44,496 bases of DNA, taken from NCBI GenBank assembly GCA_030605085.1, contig JAUWBH010000026.1:1-44496 (forward strand). The letters run 5' to 3'. Source of the DNA: Promethearchaeota archaeon. Its GTDB lineage: Archaea > Asgardarchaeota > Lokiarchaeia > Sigynarchaeales > SOKP01. The notes under the pieces were generated by a model. It did no database searches. It had not been told where the DNA came from and saw nothing but the letters and a program-made list of their open reading frames with translations. The position numbers were made by a program, and so were the translations under genes. This document shows positions 12,355 to 19,689 of this stretch, one piece after another. Position 1 is the stretch's first letter. Each line of letters starts with the position of its first letter.

Positions 12355-13623
12355 ATGAGTGATATTTTAAAGAAGTATAAATGGATGGGACCGATCATTG
12401 AAAAAATGGATCGCGACATTAAAAGAATATTTATGAAAAACTTTCGAATGCGGGATAGTAATTTTTTCCCCGAAGGAGATTACAAAGCTGATGTAAAGAA
12501 CTTAGTAAATTGTATGCTTTGCCCAAATATGTGTCGCTTTGACTGTGGAACTCTTCAAGCAACGCAAAAAGAAACTATGAGTCCTGCTTACAAAGCAAGA
12601 ATCGGATATTATCTCACGATGGGGAAAATTGATCCTACAAAAGAAGAAAATAAAGCATTTATAGATTTAATGTACAAATGCTCAAATGAGGAATCCTGTA
12701 AAGTATGGTGTCCTTTTGAGTTCTCAGTTGTTTCGTTGCTCGAGACAGTTCGAGATGATCTTAACACTAAAGGCTTGATGCCTGAATTTTGTAAAGAGCG
12801 AATTGAAAAACTTAAAACTTCAAACACAATAGAAGGATACAATATTTTTGAGACATATAAAGAAAAGGAAATTGAAAATATTGAAACCGATGGAAATGAC
12901 GATGTTTTTTATTATATTGGGTGTGAATCTATGAAATTCCCGGAAGTTATTAAAGCTAACATTGGAATATTGAAAAAGGCAGGAATTAAATTCTCTACTA
13001 ATTTGGAAAAGAAAGCTTGTTGTGGTGGACCTGCGTTTAACATTAGAGATTTAAAAACTGGAAAGGAATTTGCGAATAAAAACATCGATTTAATTAAGAG
13101 TACGGGTGCTAAAATAGTTATTTCAGATTGTCCTGGCTGTATAGAAACCTTAAGCAATCGATATCGAAATGCTGGAATTGAAATTGATATAAAATTTGTT
13201 CATATAGTCCAATATATTAAAGAACTTATCGATAATGGAAAAATAAAATTTGAAAAAGAAATCCCTGATGAATATAAAAAAATAACTATTCACGATCCTT
13301 GTTTACTTGCCAGAAATTTGAATGATACTGATTCAATTAGAGCGATATTAAAAAAATTGTCGGGTATTGAAATTATTGAACCTATTTATAATAAAAAATA
13401 TACTCATTGTTGTGGGTGGAGTGGTACAGCTCATTGGGCAGATAAAAATATTGCAATCAAAGAAGCTACAAATAGAATTAATGAATTAAAAGAGACTGGA
13501 GTAAATATTTTCATTTCAGCATGTCCTGAATGTGAATTAGGTTTAGCGTATGGAATCAGTGAAGACGATAATGGAAAGATTAAAATAATAGATATATCTG
13601 AATTATTAATTAAAGCATTATAA
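12355..13623 (+). CDS. Fe-S oxidoreductase with two CCG domains (GlcF/HdrD-like)
   Basis: A 422-residue protein. An N-terminal ferredoxin-like region has CMLCPNMCRFDCG and a degenerate second set CSNEESCKVWCPF, the latter with altered Cys spacing. Two CCG (cysteine-rich) domains follow: IGCE...CCGGPA...CPGC and HDPCLLAR...CCGWSG...CPEC, which in HdrB/D proteins bind a non-cubane 4Fe-4S cluster. ATG follows immediately on the FAD oxidase stop, so the two genes are translationally coupled and likely form one membrane-peripheral complex. No transmembrane segment is seen. The electron acceptor is unknown. Confidence 0.88.
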   Translation: MSDILKKYKWMGPIIEKMDRDIKRIFMKNFRMRDSNFFPEGDYKADVKNLVNCMLCPNMCRFDCGTLQATQKETMSPAYKARIGYYLTMGKIDPTKEENKAFIDLMYKCSNEESCKVWCPFEFSVVSLLETVRDDLNTKGLMPEFCKERIEKLKTSNTIEGYNIFETYKEKEIENIETDGNDDVFYYIGCESMKFPEVIKANIGILKKAGIKFSTNLEKKACCGGPAFNIRDLKTGKEFANKNIDLIKSTGAKIVISDCPGCIETLSNRYRNAGIEIDIKFVHIVQYIKELIDNGKIKFEKEIPDEYKKITIHDPCLLARNLNDTDSIRAILKKLSGIEIIEPIYNKKYTHCCGWSGTAHWADKNIAIKEATNRINELKETGVNIFISACPECELGLAYGISEDDNGKIKIIDISELLIKAL

Positions 13624-13911
13624 TTTAAAAAAAGAAATAAAACTAAAATTATATCGTTCTTAAGTGAATAATATGAGTGAACTCTTATGTGTATTTGATG
13701 TAGGATTATGTTCTTATCATTCTTTTTTTTCAATTCTGCTAAAATTTGTATTAATACTTCTTCCGACATTTTTGAACCATTTTTCCCTAATAAATTATTG
13801 ATTATGTTTAGATTTAATAATTGGATATTTAACATTTTTGTTAAACTTAAGAAAAGATTATATTAAAACTTTCAATATTTTTATATATTAAAGTAAAAAG
13901 TGATCCATTAC
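13624..13911. other. Intergenic region with leaderless promoter of the STAND gene
   Basis: No supported gene. A minus-strand open frame here overlaps the preceding gene's 3' end and has no family features. The end holds TTTTTATATATTAAAG (about 13879-13893), a good TATA element centred about 26 bp before the ATG at 13912, which predicts a leaderless mRNA. Confidence 0.45.
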
Positions 13912-16900
13912 ATGCTGAAAATATTTTTAAGTTCTACTTTTCGAGATTTAAAAGATACTCGGAGTGAAATCCTAAATAAATTAAATTCCGTATTTGAAGG
14001 CGTAGGCATGGAAAAGTTCATTCCAGACGGTGAGACATCTCATAAAAACTGTATTGATGATTTGAAAGAAAGTAAAATTGTAGTTTTCTTAATTTCTCCG
14101 TATTATGGCTCTCTCATAGATGTTTGTGAACTGAAAGAGGATTGTAAAGCAGATTGTCCAATGAAAACAGGCAAAGGGCAAATTTCATATACTCATTGTG
14201 AGTATAAAACTACATTAGCAGAAGGAATTTTACACCAAACCTATAAGGTGTTAGAAGGGTGGGATGCTCCAGATGTACAAAAAGATCCATTAAAAATGAA
14301 ATTTGAACAAGAAATCGGGAAGAAAATGTGGACTCCTATTCAAGATATTGAGGATCCTCAAGTAGTGAAAATGATTGGCGAACATTTAGCGGGAAATATT
14401 ATTAAATGGTATTTAAAGAAAAAATTAACCTTTGAAAAATTTTGCGACAGAATAGAAGATTTCGATGAGTTAATAAAAAGCATCGACGGAAAGGTAGAAG
14501 TGTATGGAGTTGGGGGAGTAGGAAAGACCTCACTAATTCAAGTGGCACTACTCATTCAAAAATTAAAGGGAAAAAAGATAGTAACTATTGGTACACCTAA
14601 AGCTTATGCTAGTGGGTCTGGTTTTGAAGATTTCAGAACTAAATGTAAAGATGATCAATATGAAGCAGAGTCTAGGAATGAGATTACGATATATGATATT
14701 GTAAATGCCTTGGTTAAGGTTGAGTTATTATCCAATGCTGAAGAGATATTAAAAATGCCAAAGAATGAGATTATAGAATTTTTATCAAATTTCATCAAAA
14801 AAGAAGAAAATCTCACTCTTTTCATTGATGATTTCCATTTGGCAAATAAAGATGTAGTGCTACTAGTAAAATCAGTGGAAAACATAATTTTTTCCTCACG
14901 AAAGAATACATATATTGCTAAAACAGAAATTTGCATAACCGGTATTGATAAAGAAGACAGAGAAGATCTTATAAATCTATTTTCAGCCGAAGAACTTCCT
15001 GAGAAAGCAAAGGAATTAATTGAACAAATTGCTGAGGGGCATCCTGTATCAACTGAATTACTTGTAAAAAATTATCAAAATATTGACTTTGATAACATTA
15101 AAGATTTTGATCTTGAAGATCCTGATGATGAGCAAGTAATGGATTTTTATAAGCGTGTGATTGAAGAAGTTTTCTCTAATAATTCACAAGCATTGGTTTT
15201 ACTTAAGGATCTTGCTATATTGAACACTGATTTACCTACTAATATTAATAGAGAGAGTGTGCTAAAATCTTACGATATTAAAAATATAAGAAAAGTTTTT
15301 AAAAATCTAGTAGATACAGGGATGTTAAAAAAAAGAGAAGGTCAAGAAGGAACTTATGAATTCTATTTCAAGCACATCCAAGATGCATTAGAAAATATTG
15401 CAGATAAGGAAAGCCAAGAAAAAGCCATAGAATACTACGAGAAAAAAGAAGAAATAATTGGAGAAAGTATTGATGATGCTGTAGAAATTCTATACCATAA
15501 AGTTAAATTTAATCCGAGTGAAGAGTTATTTGATGACTTTACTTTAACTATGAGGAACGTTGAACCCTTTCATTATGGTTACAGAAAATTAATAGATATT
15601 GGGAGAGCTTTAGAATCCTCACTTAAGTCCGAAGATAAAGCAAGTATTCTTAGTCAACTTGCAGCTCTTTATAGAGAATCTTTTAGGTTAGAGGATGCTG
15701 AAAATTTATTTCTCAAATCTTTAATAATCTATGAAGAATTAGCTAAAAAGGAAGATTTTTTGCCCAAAAATCTTGCTACAACTCAAAATGATTTAGGTCT
15801 TCTGTATTTAGATTTAAAGAAATATGAAAAAGCCGAAGAATTTTTGCTTAAATCTTTAAACTATAGAGAAAATTTGGTAGAAAAATTTCCTGAAGATTAT
15901 CTAACTGAATCAGTTATTCAAATGATTTTTTCTGATGTTGCTGATTCTTACTTAAATCTTGGAAATTTGTTTTTTTATTTAAATAATTTTAAAGAAGCTG
16001 AAGGCTATTATCTTAACGCTTTAAAAAAATATGCTAAATTGGCTGATTTAAATCCAGAATATTTACTACAGGTTGTTAAAGCTCAATCTAATTTAGGTGT
16101 TATTTATACGGATTTAAACAGATATAGTGAAGCTGAGGAAATGCTCATAAATGCTTTAGACTTTTACAATACTAATTCTGAATTATATTTACCAGATATC
16201 GCAAGAACTAAACAAGGACTCGGTATTTTATATAGAAAAATGAAAAAATATAAGGATTCTGAAAAAGCTTACCTTGAAGCTTTAAAAATAATGTCGGTTT
16301 TAAAGAAAAAAAATCCTGTAGTATATTTACCAAAAGATGCTATGCTTCAAATAAATCTTGGAATTTTATACGGTGCTTTAGAACGGGAGGAGGAACAACA
16401 AAAGTGTTATAAAAATGCTTTAGAGATTTATGAAAATTTAGCAAGAGAAAATCCCGACGTTTATTTACCAACTTTAGCGACCACCCAACATAACATAAGC
16501 GTTTCATATTTTAGATTAGAAAAGTACGAAGAAGCTGAAAATATGGCCCTTAAAGCTTTAAAAGTGAGGAAAAAATTTGCTGCGGTAAGCCCAGAAGCCT
16601 TTCTCCCCCATGTTATTCAAACTCTGAATGGTCTTGGAGTAATTTATGCTGGATCTAAACGATTTGACGAGGCTGAAAAAATTTTTTTAGAAGGCATAAA
16701 GATCTTTAAAGGATTAGATAAAGAAATATCAGAAAATACCTTATCAGAGGTTGCTAATATTTATTATAATCTTGGTAAACAATACGTTGATTTAAAAGAA
16801 TATTATAAAGCTGAAGAAACTCTTTTCGAAACCTTAAATAAATACAAAGAATTAGCAAAAAAGAATCCAGAAATTTTTCAATCAGAGCTAATAAAGACTC

Positions 16901-17586
16901 AAACTAGTCTTAGAGAGTTATATAGAGAGATAATTCAGATTGAAGACTCTGAAAATATTTATTTAAGAGCTCTAGAAAACTATACAGAATTAGCCAATAG
17001 CGATCCTGATATTTATCAAGTTATTCTTGCTGAAATTCATAAGGATCTCGGTTTATTATATAATTATTCAAATAAAATGGAGGATGCTAAGATATCCCTC
17101 AACAAAGCTTTAGAGCTTTTTAAAGAGTTAATGATGGAAAATTCTCAAGTATATCGAATTGACGTAGTTCAGATTTTTTCAGCACTAGCAGAAATCTCTT
17201 TGAATCTGAATGAATTAAGAGAAGCAGAAAAATATTACCTTGACTCACTAGAAATTGTCAAAGAACTTTCAAAGGAAAATCCTGAAACTTATTTACCGCT
17301 TGAAATTGAACATTACAGCACTCTTGGATCAAATTATATAATGCTAAAGGATTTAGAAAATGCATTAAAATATATTAACCAAGCATTAGAGATTGACCCT
17401 GCATATGCAAATGCGCTGTATAATAAAGCATGTGTTGAATCGATAATGAATAATAATGTAGAGTCTTTAGACTCCCTGCGAAAAGCAATTGAACTAGATA
17501 AAAGTCTTGCAGATTCGGCAAAAAGCGACGATGATTTTGATAACTTAAGAAACTTAAAAGAATTTAAAGAATTAATTGGTGAATAA
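13912..17586 (+). CDS. DUF4062 - STAND NTPase - TPR protein (probable defence sensor)
   Basis: About 1224 residues. The N-terminus (MLKIFLSSTFRDLKDTRSEI) is a DUF4062 domain, with FLISPYYGSL further on. A P-loop GVGGVGKTS (about 200-207) and a Walker B LTLFIDDFH (about 301-309) mark a NACHT/NB-ARC-like STAND ATPase, followed by a winged-helix-like region. From about residue 530 to the end there are many TPR repeats of the 42-residue kinesin-light-chain/TPR_10 style (LGxLYxxxxxYxxAExxxxxAL...). DUF4062 with STAND and TPR is an architecture seen among prokaryotic antiviral or NLR-like proteins: TPRs sense, the NTPase oligomerises, the N-terminal domain acts. A GTG at 13900 is an alternative start; the ATG at 13912 is preferred by TATA spacing and because it gives the usual DUF4062 N-terminus. 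Confidence 0.85.
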   Translation: MLKIFLSSTFRDLKDTRSEILNKLNSVFEGVGMEKFIPDGETSHKNCIDDLKESKIVVFLISPYYGSLIDVCELKEDCKADCPMKTGKGQISYTHCEYKTTLAEGILHQTYKVLEGWDAPDVQKDPLKMKFEQEIGKKMWTPIQDIEDPQVVKMIGEHLAGNIIKWYLKKKLTFEKFCDRIEDFDELIKSIDGKVEVYGVGGVGKTSLIQVALLIQKLKGKKIVTIGTPKAYASGSGFEDFRTKCKDDQYEAESRNEITIYDIVNALVKVELLSNAEEILKMPKNEIIEFLSNFIKKEENLTLFIDDFHLANKDVVLLVKSVENIIFSSRKNTYIAKTEICITGIDKEDREDLINLFSAEELPEKAKELIEQIAEGHPVSTELLVKNYQNIDFDNIKDFDLEDPDDEQVMDFYKRVIEEVFSNNSQALVLLKDLAILNTDLPTNINRESVLKSYDIKNIRKVFKNLVDTGMLKKREGQEGTYEFYFKHIQDALENIADKESQEKAIEYYEKKEEIIGESIDDAVEILYHKVKFNPSEELFDDFTLTMRNVEPFHYGYRKLIDIGRALESSLKSEDKASILSQLAALYRESFRLEDAENLFLKSLIIYEELAKKEDFLPKNLATTQNDLGLLYLDLKKYEKAEEFLLKSLNYRENLVEKFPEDYLTESVIQMIFSDVADSYLNLGNLFFYLNNFKEAEGYYLNALKKYAKLADLNPEYLLQVVKAQSNLGVIYTDLNRYSEAEEMLINALDFYNTNSELYLPDIARTKQGLGILYRKMKKYKDSEKAYLEALKIMSVLKKKNPVVYLPKDAMLQINLGILYGALEREEEQQKCYKNALEIYENLARENPDVYLPTLATTQHNISVSYFRLEKYEEAENMALKALKVRKKFAAVSPEAFLPHVIQTLNGLGVIYAGSKRFDEAEKIFLEGIKIFKGLDKEISENTLSEVANIYYNLGKQYVDLKEYYKAEETLFETLNKYKELAKKNPEIFQSELIKTQTSLRELYREIIQIEDSENIYLRALENYTELANSDPDIYQVILAEIHKDLGLLYNYSNKMEDAKISLNKALELFKELMMENSQVYRIDVVQIFSALAEISLNLNELREAEKYYLDSLEIVKELSKENPETYLPLEIEHYSTLGSNYIMLKDLENALKYINQALEIDPAYANALYNKACVESIMNNNVESLDSLRKAIELDKSLADSAKSDDDFDNLRNLKEFKELIGE

Positions 17587-17649
17587 AGGTTAATATATCT
17601 TCAAAAGTTTGAGAACGAGGAAGATCATAAAATTGATTAGAAAAGTTAG

Positions 17650-17751
17650 TATAAAAGTGGTAAGTTAAAATTTAAATCTTACTACGACAGAAAAGACCAA
17701 ACTTATTTTTTAACAAAGGCAGGTATAAAAAACCAATTTTGCCCCATTTAA
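17650..17751 (+). pseudogene. Decayed fragment, winged-helix-tail-like
   Basis: An open stretch without a start codon encodes KSGKLKFKSYYDRKDQTYFL-TKAGIKN, resembling the beta-wing and last helix of archaeal winged-helix regulators (YxLTxxGxK). It lies between the STAND gene and a similar fragment at 17902-18084. Too short to assign; probably a gene remnant. Confidence 0.25.
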
Positions 17752-17901
17752 CCAAAATACAAGAACGATTATTTTCAAAATTAAATTTAGAGCAATATTT
17801 TTTATAATTTTTTTCATGTAGGTAGAATTTGATCTATTTTTTAAAATTCTTTTTAAATAAGTTACGACAAAAAAAGGTTTAAACTGAATTAAGAATTATA
17901 A

Positions 17902-18084
17902 CTTGTAAAGTCAAGTAATATAAATAAATTTTTTAACGCAAGAAAGAAACTTTTGGAGAAATATGGCAAATTAATTTTTGGAAGAACTTATTCCCCGACT
18001 AAATATTATTTGAATGATGAAGGTAAAAGAATTGTGCGTATAATGTATTATTTCAGAGACTATTATAGAAATTATCGAAGATAA
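17902..18084 (+). pseudogene. Small winged-helix-like ORF or remnant
   Basis: The open frame encodes about 60 residues, ending KYYLNDEGKRIVRIMYYF-RDYYRNYRR. The part YYLNDEGKRIVRI is typical of the wing and C-terminal helix of MarR/ArsR-like archaeal regulators. No ATG; the only canonical start is a TTG at 17953, giving 43 residues. Upstream stops cut off the expected HTH core. It is either a truncated regulator or the dead 3' part of one. It shares style with the fragment at 17650-17751, as if two related genes decayed here. Confidence 0.35.
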
Positions 18085-18183
18085 TTGTTGAAGATCATTT
18101 CTTTTAGTTGGAAATATAAATTTTTTTTTTAATAAAATAAAAAACCAAAGTTCTCTTTTTTTATTTAAAGAAATTAAGTTTTT

Positions 18184-18198
18184 AAGGTAATTAAAATA
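18184..18198 (+). promoter_or_regulatory. Shine-Dalgarno and AUA start of the FGGY kinase
   Basis: AAGGT at 18184-18188 is followed by 7 nt and then ATA at 18196, whose frame reads (M)GKDLILVFDVG, the expected FGGY N-terminus. An in-frame stop at 18175 and the absence of ATG leave ATA (or the too-short GTG at 18217) as start. Confidence 0.45.
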
Positions 18199-19689
18199 GG
18201 AAAGGATTTAATTTTAGTGTTCGATGTTGGAAAACTACTGCGGCTACCGAAGTAGTCTAGAACCACAGGGGCACGAACCATTATTTTTGACATTAACGGG
18301 AAAGAAATTTCAAGGTCTTATGAGGAATATCCGATTGTAAAGCAACCAGTTGGTATTTCTGAACAAGATCCATTAATTTGGTGGAACGCTGTTAAGAATA
18401 CTTGTAATATAGCAGTAAAAAAAGTAAATCCAGACGATATTATTGGAATATCTGCTTCTTTCCAACGAGCAACTGCAGGTCTTATTGATAAGAATGGAGA
18501 AGTTTTGCATCCCGCATTAACATGGATGGACGAGAGAGAAGTAGTTGATGCCTCAACAGTTCATGAAGAATTAAGAAGAACTGTTCCTAAGATATTATGG
18601 CTCAAAAACAATAAACCTGACTTGTTTAATCAAGCTTCTAAAATCATCTTCCCTGATACTTATATATACATGAATTTGTGTGGGAAAGAGATATGTGTTA
18701 CCGATCCTACAAATGGGATTTGGGGAATTATGAGTATGGAAACTTTAGATTGGGATGAAAAACTTGCTGAATCGTATGGTTTGCCCGTCGCTTTATGGCC
18801 TGAACTTCATACACCCGGAGAAATTATTGGAGAACTATCTAACGAAGCTGCGGGAAATTTAGGTCTTAAGAGTAATATTCCTGTAGTTTTAGGTGGAGGT
18901 GACCAACAATGCGCTGCTTTAGGTTTGGGGATTGTCAATAAAGGACAAGCAAAAGTAACCACAGGAACAGGAACATTTGTTGATTATGTTACAGGTGATG
19001 CACCAGCAAAACCCGCAGGTAATGTTCCCATATTTCCGTTGCCGCATGTCATTAAAGGAAAATGGATTATTGAAGGTACAATGCCTGGTACTGGAACTGC
19101 ATTAAAATGGTTTAAGGACAATTTTTCTCAATTACAAGCAAAGGAATGCGAAGAAAAAGATCTCGATGTATATGATGCGTTAACTAAAGAAGCAGAACAA
19201 ATCTCTCCCGGAAGTGAGGGATTATTGTTTGTTCCATTATATGTATTTAGAAAAGGAACGATTCATGGTATAGGGTGGAATCATACCAGAGCTCATATGA
19301 TTCGTGCTATTATGGAATCAGCTGCATTAAGTGCTCAAATGTATATGGGAATGTTAGAAGCTATTGGTGGTGCTAAAGTTACTGAGTTAAAGTCGGACGG
19401 AGGAGCAATGAATAGCGATTTATGGGCACAGATTTATGCTGATATAATGTCTAGGAAAATAATTGTTCCAGAGAACAAAGATGGTGCGGCATTAGGCGCC
19501 GCTATTTTAGGATTTTACGGCTGCAAGAAATATAATAGTATTGATAATGCGATAGAAAAAATGGTTAGATTTGAAAAAGAATTCAATCCCATTAAAGCAA
19601 ATACAAAGGTTTACAAGAAACTCAATAGGTTATTTATGCCCACAGTATTAGATATTTTTGATAAAAAGCGTGTAACTAAAGACCTTTAA
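18196..19689 (+). CDS. FGGY-family carbohydrate kinase, interrupted by a 30-nt intron-like insert
   Basis: After removal of 18233-18262 the frame encodes about 487 residues, full FGGY kinase length. N-terminal domain: ILVFDVGTTGART (ATP-binding DxGTTxxR motif, restored only on removal), then ISASFQRATAG and PALTWMDEREV for substrate and hinge. C-terminal domain: GGGDQQCAALGLG, TTGTGTFVDY, and SDGGAMNSDLWAQIYADIM...AALGAAILG (FGGY signature 2). Such enzymes phosphorylate xylulose, glycerol or other polyols; the substrate is unknown. Unspliced, a TAG at 18253 stops translation after 19 codons, and a canonical downstream start (TTG 18505) would lose the ATP site. The apparent start is ATA at 18196. 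Apart from these two oddities nothing suggests decay. Confidence 0.8.
18233..18262 (+). other. Candidate BHB (archaeal splicing endonuclease) mini-intron
   Basis: The 30-nt insert folds as a stem ACTACT/AGTAGT (18234-18239 with 18251-18256), extended past a G-A mismatch by CGG/CCG with a CTA loop. Outside it lie 3-nt bulges AAA (18231-18233) and AAC (18261-18263). Between the bulges is a 4-bp helix TTGG (18227-18230) with CTAG (18257-18260), two pairs being G-U, and beyond that a 2-bp outer helix TG/CA. This is the hBHBh' form. Cutting after the second base of each bulge gives GTTGGAA+CCACAGGG, which restores DVGTTGAR exactly. Confidence 0.7.

Follow-up and report, generated by a model that had tools for sequence, protein, structure and literature searches.

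A putative 30-nt bulge-helix-bulge intron in an FGGY kinase gene, and inserts of the same kind in other Lokiarchaeial protein genes

A 30-nt segment that interrupts an FGGY kinase gene is in all likelihood an archaeal bulge-helix-bulge (BHB) pre-mRNA intron, one of a class of about 30 nt in the protein genes of Lokiarchaeia, as judged from sequence comparison. The segment, AACTACTGCGGCTACCGAAGTAGTCTAGAA, lies on the plus strand at 18233..18262 of the window (the whole 44,496-nt stretch of DNA analysed here) and has an in-frame TAG at 18253-18255. Counted with the kinase insert, 12 stop-bearing inserts were found at seven sites in six genomes, including that of the window. The BHB-intron reading is strongly supported because other Asgard genes contain inserts that match this one in size and fold, with three sites common to two to four genomes and some covariation.

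In the transcript, TTGG of exon 1 would pair with CTAG in the 3' part of the intron, beside the hairpin formed by the intron itself. Cleavage by the splicing endonuclease would then fall between the second and third bases of each 3-nt bulge, and GGAA would be joined to CCA by an RNA ligase, presumably RtcB, restoring DVGTTGAR.

The kinase insert and the split gene around it

From position 18178 on, the window reads VFKVIKIGKDLILVFDVG, followed by ten codons, KLLRLPK*SR, and then by codons for TTGARTIIFD. Translation of the kinase frame as GKDLILVFDVG/KLLRLPK*SR/TTGARTIIFD (slashes mark the edges of an insert or a cut) confirmed the preliminary description of this DNA, which had reported 30 inserted nt, including an in-frame TAG, that separate DVG from TTGAR in an FGGY kinase. 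As that description had also held, removal of the insert restores the motif: without the 30 nt of 18233-18262, a single open kinase frame continues up to the stop codon at 19687-19689. The BHB fold drawn there can form as described. Two 3-nt bulges on opposite strands, A-A/A (18231-18233) and A-A/C (18261-18263), flank a central helix of TTGG (18227..18230) and CTAG (18257..18260), both on the plus strand, in which 4/4 positions are paired, two of them as G-U. The inner stem of ACTACT (18234-18239) and AGTAGT (18251-18256) is extended by CGG/CCG, which had gone unlisted, and the outer helix is 2 bp long. Among 400,000 shuffles of the insert, strict BHB geometry together with an inner stem of at least 6 and the same spliced product arose in a fraction of 8.25e-5; a looser score gave p = 0.0012 against shuffles. 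When the bar was set at no fewer than 9/10 Watson-Crick pairs, at least five of them G-C, with a loop of 3-8, the hairpin was unique in the window. The BHB lies above the minimum energy, at -7.5 kcal/mol (-9.3 without the 2-bp outer helix) versus -11.2 for the best fold, and the pair probabilities of the central helix are 0.07-0.18 at 37 C.

Alignment of homologues, which had been proposed as a check, bore out the expectation of an insert, in that relatives with the same kinase flanks, such as L001, L002 and L007, are missing it. The kinase was matched in 215 of 227 Asgard genomes, with an inner stop in none of the matches listed. A search of the 227 genomes with up to three mismatches allowed turned up no copy of a 24-base core of the insert; this weighs against the intron reading, and on the same result the palindrome was rejected as a repeat family. 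Read as decayed kinase codons, the 30 nt did no better than shuffles (p 0.26). Nothing in the window matched Rfam at the gathering score, and the insert, at 30 nt and with no Rfam match, does not have the catalytic RNA core of a self-splicing group I or II intron. An exact 18-mer of the hairpin occurs in an IMG/VR viral contig (L157:6163-6180), by our estimate at about chance level. Two kinase proteins, P0113 and P0022, have VGTTGAR or VFDCGTTG as their listed N-terminus, which puts their start at the intron site or immediately before it; they may be partial proteins or further intron-bearing copies.

The kinase gene of the window is also split by a segment of about 4.56 kb. Its original 5' end (MSELLCVFDVG, ATGAGTGAACTCTTATGTGTATTTGATGTAGGA) lies at 13673..13705 on the plus strand, where the letters from the ATG through codon 11 are GATGTAGGA, and is detached from the remaining gene; it was assigned by blastn synteny with L001, L002 and L007, which takes in the preceding ORF, the leader, the ATG and the first codons. 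In relatives (named Lokiarchaeota and Lokiarchaeia assemblies, whose best proteins are 90% identical) the kinase directly follows a CCG-domain ORF, found at 12355-13623 in the window. Codons 11 and 12 are contiguous in the kinase of L001, L002 and L007, and in the window the kinase resumes at codon 12 after the 4.56 kb. The inserted segment (13706..18261, strand not assigned, ends ambiguous by at most 2 nt) is not present in those three orthologues, and its contents include most of the intron together with a second kinase 5' end. On its plus strand it encodes an ORF of 1228 aa with DUF4062 and TPR repeats by Pfam (13900..17586) and a 60-codon open segment (17902..18081) resembling part of large Asgard proteins. 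The latter, matched in 15 of the 227 genomes at E <= 0.01 with the best three 47-50% identical, looks like a fragment. A search of two small-frame peptides of the segment against Pfam gave nothing convincing. A minus-strand frame of coding look spans the left junction, with weak relatives in 6 of 227 genomes (E 0.002-0.009). The AT-rich matches to 18117-18198 were rejected as low-complexity leaders beside unrelated sequence.

The second kinase 5' end forms exon 1 (18196..18232, plus strand), which translates as (ATA)GKDLILVFDVG and resembles the leaders and starts of L018, L090, L096 and L100. Ahead of GTG 18217 it has no in-frame ATG, GTG or TTG. In a comparison of 36 kinase 5' ends, ATG is present in 34, and 26 carry GTGA no more than 14 nt upstream; exon 1 has ATA at the place of the ATG and GTAA (GTAAT) at that of GTGA (GTGAT). 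The GTG could be usable as a start, by which the first strand of the kinase would be shortened. The remaining kinase, exon 2 (18263..19689, plus strand), is intact, with Pfam FGGY_N and FGGY_C on 18505-19686 and a dN/dS of about 0.10 against L001 and L002. Its body has no departures at columns at least 97% conserved among 118 proteins, and three departures precede the start of the body. In L003 (L164) there are four tandem FGGY kinases, versus one in L001 and in L002.

The breakpoint of the 4.56-kb segment falls within one base of the intron site, and this is also the codon boundary where the original 5' end breaks off. The split is a question apart from that of the intron, and the present exon 1 is a second kinase 5' end; the DNA palindrome could have promoted a break at the insertion site, which is our guess. 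Tested by hand as one giant BHB intron, the whole 4.56 kb offered no central helix at the standard distance in any of three registers. A site-specific element that brings a replacement 5' end was rejected as unsupported, the sole large ORF in the segment being the DUF4062/TPR one and the Pfam test of small frames covering two peptides. The split, the upstream original start and the second kinase 5' end are absent from the preliminary description.

Inserts in other protein genes and in tRNAs

Asgard DNA, mostly Lokiarchaeial, was screened for similar inserts with 1670 ORFs against 2.17 Mb and then with 2281 ORFs against 2.52 Mb; the larger set contains 0.96 Mb of G001, 0.56 Mb of G125 and 0.32 Mb of G117. 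G001 and G004 are named Lokiarchaeota assemblies, and G108, G117 and G125 are taken for Lokiarchaeia by similarity. The larger screen returned 22 rows of internal stop-bearing inserts with similar flanks, and their lengths peak at exactly 10 codons: nine rows, equal to eight loci since two rows are one place, with seven of the loci outside the window. The remaining 13 rows, of 4, 5, 7, 8, 13, 16, 18 and 31 codons, were dismissed by eye as weak matches or as alignments reaching beyond the start Met on its 5' side. Stop-free inserts showed no peak, with 17, 16 and 13 rows at 9, 10 and 11 codons. One frame-shifting insert of 32 nt was also found; a second frame-shift pair (37 nt, L350; 41-44% identity, stops within the alignment) was set aside as apparently spurious. 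Together, screen and follow-up yielded 11 further stop-bearing inserts, ten of 30 nt and one of 32 nt, in six other gene families and five other genomes. All 12 inserts have an in-frame stop, and open 10-codon inserts show no excess; since the screen picks stop-bearing inserts, selection for stops is only possible. A blind scan for BHB shapes that join ORFs gave 83 hits against 112 decoys and so is without power by itself. One of its hits, in GH57, became a lead via homology; there the strict cut shifts the frame, and a neighbouring register with 3/4 central pairs restores it.

Ribosomal protein uS11 has an insert at SPYAA(M)/QCGF in G001 (match C1:158632-159057, minus strand) and at the same site in G117 (C159:3822-4268). 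The protein was matched in 194 of 227 genomes, and among the matches listed a stop combined with more than two additional codons is confined to these two; there is no match in G002, and those in G124 and G125 are weak. Joining of the exons can restore Met (AT/G), the residue found at the site in 30/30 relatives' loci fetched (26 by pattern, four by eye). The GH57 insert lies at HG/(I)WPHG in G001 (C1:110392-112134, minus strand) and, at the same site, in G117 (C157:44724-46466). Ninety-one genomes match GH57, with a stop in G001 and G117 only among the matches listed, and 28/28 other loci checked read HG(V/I/N)WPHG without an insert. One genome missing the insert is G002 (L260), a close relative of G001, and therefore its gain or loss there was recent. 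The NAD synthetase gene (nadE) is interrupted at one site, FTKYGD/GGVD, in G004, G108, G117 and G125 and is free of the insert in G157, G107 and G139 (L387); this count takes in G117 from the screen, five further rows that were fetched and G139, and leaves out stop-bearing rows such as G120, G109 and G100-G104. In G117 and G125 the nadE introns have almost the same sequence and are therefore not independent. The other cases are the 32-nt insert, which changes the frame of a BcrAD_BadFG ATPase in G117, and one insert each in two proteins without a Pfam match, in G001 and G125.

In G001, G002 and G125, 24 of 75 tRNA matches span 101-107 nt. Nineteen of the long matches imply an insert of about 25-33 nt; the other five are tRNA-Ser by eye, with a long variable arm and a shorter insert. 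Removal of a BHB-shaped segment with at least 3/4 central pairs left a tRNA accepted by ARAGORN in 21 of the 24, some without a clear anticodon, in a search run without a null and restricted to products of 67-80 nt. For L187, L210 and L211, no such removal gave an accepted tRNA. Several tRNA inserts (for example L214, L184, L198 and L202) sit at apparently non-standard positions. The splicing-endonuclease domain PF01974 scored above the cut-off in 7/7 related genomes searched. An RtcB ligase is expected in the host. Endonuclease and RtcB together make up the archaeal splicing route (PMC7994747).

BHB scores, covariation and competing explanations

Nine introns were scored on central and inner pairs, with the kinase included and three later nadE copies left out. 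Any register with the same product and a 5' bulge of 3 or 4 nt was allowed, and for uS11 the junction that restores Met was used; both the score and the tolerance of a 4-nt bulge were chosen after the cases had been seen, and the shuffles had equal freedom. The scores sum to 98, against a null mean of 57.0 and a null maximum of 70 in 5000 shuffles, and single-intron p-values range from 0.0000 to 0.0186. At length 30, a score of at least 11 is reached at 34 of 44,416 arbitrary window positions versus 8/9 introns. By a stricter score with the uS11 junction giving Ile, the two uS11 inserts score 3 and 0, and GH57 of G117, the G125 gene and BcrAD score 5 each. All four central pairs form in 6/9 introns, three form in GH57 of G001 and the unnamed G001 gene, and two in GH57 of G117; both uS11 introns require a 4-nt 5' bulge. 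Thus, the kinase insert has the canonical BHB of a 4-bp central helix and two 3-nt bulges, and the class has it only in relaxed form.

Compensating changes between exon and intron are found in uS11, from A-U to U-A and also from G-U to G-C (GCAGC/GCTGC in the exon, GTTG/GCAG in the intron), and in GH57, where one U-A pair becomes C-G and another central pair is lost. Inner-stem pairs are compensated on both sides in uS11, GH57 and nadE, with a few broken, so some pairs in each of these three genes show compensation. Each exon-intron covariation is based on two sequences, and the kinase intron is a single copy. In the kinase, uS11, GH57 and nadE alike, homologues do not have the insert, and taking it out recovers the reading frame and conserved residues.

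Phage T4 gene 60 and the mitochondrial byps are bypass elements, and bypassing goes with matched take-off and landing codons. Translational bypassing here would have the ribosome stop at GGA, jump the 30-nt stop-bearing hairpin and land on a like codon. The likeness is seen in the kinase and GH57, where a short, stop-bearing hairpin gap comes after GGA: in the kinase and in both GH57 genes, GGA precedes the insert and AGA or GGA closes it, with hairpin and stop between, and in most cases the peptide would be identical to the splicing product. At uS11, however, the codons flanking the gap would give Ile in both genomes, at a position that is Met in every locus fetched, and splicing can restore that Met. 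Nor is GGA the codon ahead of the inserts in uS11, nadE, BcrAD and the two unnamed genes; the codons match as GGA/GGA in one GH57, read GGA/AGA in the kinase and the other GH57, and are unmatched at the other sites examined. Covariation between exon and intron is not expected of bypassing, and the BcrAD insert, at 32 nt, changes the frame. We favour splicing because of the restored uS11 Met and the sites without matched codons, and regard bypassing as improbable. A sequencing or assembly artefact is less probable still: the genomes are in part metagenome-assembled, but the inserts have one length, stops, a BHB fold and some compensating changes, and recur at the same sites in different assemblies.

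For the window alone, there is an appreciable, if lesser, chance that the kinase is a dead gene, in which the 30 nt either have ceased to be spliced or represent junction sequence of the 4.56-kb insertion with a chance BHB; this would be compatible with an intron origin. The gene is split 11 codons in, its original 5' end stopping at the very codon boundary of the intron site, and ATA for ATG and GTAAT where relatives have GTGAT fit decay of this copy. Against this, exon 2 is intact with a dN/dS like that of intact kinases, although a recent insertion would look alike. A BHB formed purely by chance is unlikely because the size and fold match those of introns in other genes. With its body intact and its start replaced, this copy either broke recently or is still produced from its second 5' end. 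The earlier claim that the insert must be removed for activity is likely to hold for a full-length kinase made from this frame, and expression of the copy, a split gene with no ATG, is putative. As for a "rare protein-gene intron", the BHB mini-intron is well supported, and "rare" is probably wrong, as the insert looks like one of a class.

Relation to known archaeal introns

The cbf5 pre-mRNA introns of Crenarchaeota are BHB-like, are cut between bulge bases 2 and 3 and include cases of 33, 36 and 39 bp; they disrupt a key codon, are patchy among relatives and have known spliced cDNAs (PMC2738675). The inserts described here are similar in their BHB-like fold, predicted cut position, shortness, disruption of a key codon and patchy presence. 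They differ in that cbf5 is one crenarchaeal gene with spliced cDNAs, whereas the present inserts fall in seven Asgard gene families, are known from sequence alone and measure 30 nt in 11/12 cases. The preliminary placing of the kinase insert among the shortest introns calls for caution, with cbf5 introns of 33-39 bp and archaeal tRNA introns from 11 nt already on record (PMC2738675). Introns in other archaeal protein genes are described as predicted and unconfirmed (PMC2738675), and 12-bp inserts in an archaeal virus (Peng et al., cited in PMC2738675) were proposed as introns and possibly are not spliced. These, too, are short inserts in protein genes, of 12 bp in the virus versus 30 nt here. 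Introns are found in 92-95% of the tRNA genes of Atabeyarchaeia and Freyarchaeia (PMC11291895); the BHB architecture is common to archaeal tRNA introns and to the inserts here, whose host genes are protein-coding. As of 2020, the one other BHB mRNA intron named was that of cbf5, besides the intron of the HVO_1309 leader in Haloferax, which lies in the 5'-UTR (PMC7714728). The HVO_1309 transcript is likewise an mRNA substrate of the splicing endonuclease, in an untranslated leader rather than, as here, in a coding frame. Among open-licence PubMed Central papers, searched by title and abstract opening, no report of introns in Lokiarchaeial protein genes was found, and the stop-bearing mini-intron class appears to be new for Asgard archaea.

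Taken together, the comparisons suggest that Lokiarchaeia probably splice mRNAs routinely. Many stop-bearing introns of about 30 nt, spliced by the endonuclease and akin to the tRNA introns of these organisms, would lie in ordinary and essential genes (uS11, NAD synthetase, GH57 and others), would be gained and lost between species, and would be missed by gene finders that have no model of them. The class spans several protein genes, one of them for a universal ribosomal protein. A gene finder halts at a stop codon, and intron-bearing genes are therefore truncated or missed, so gene prediction for Lokiarchaeial genomes would change if this is true. Gain and loss of archaeal mRNA introns would become testable by comparison, and pre-mRNA splicing by the tRNA endonuclease would be ordinary in relatives of eukaryotes.
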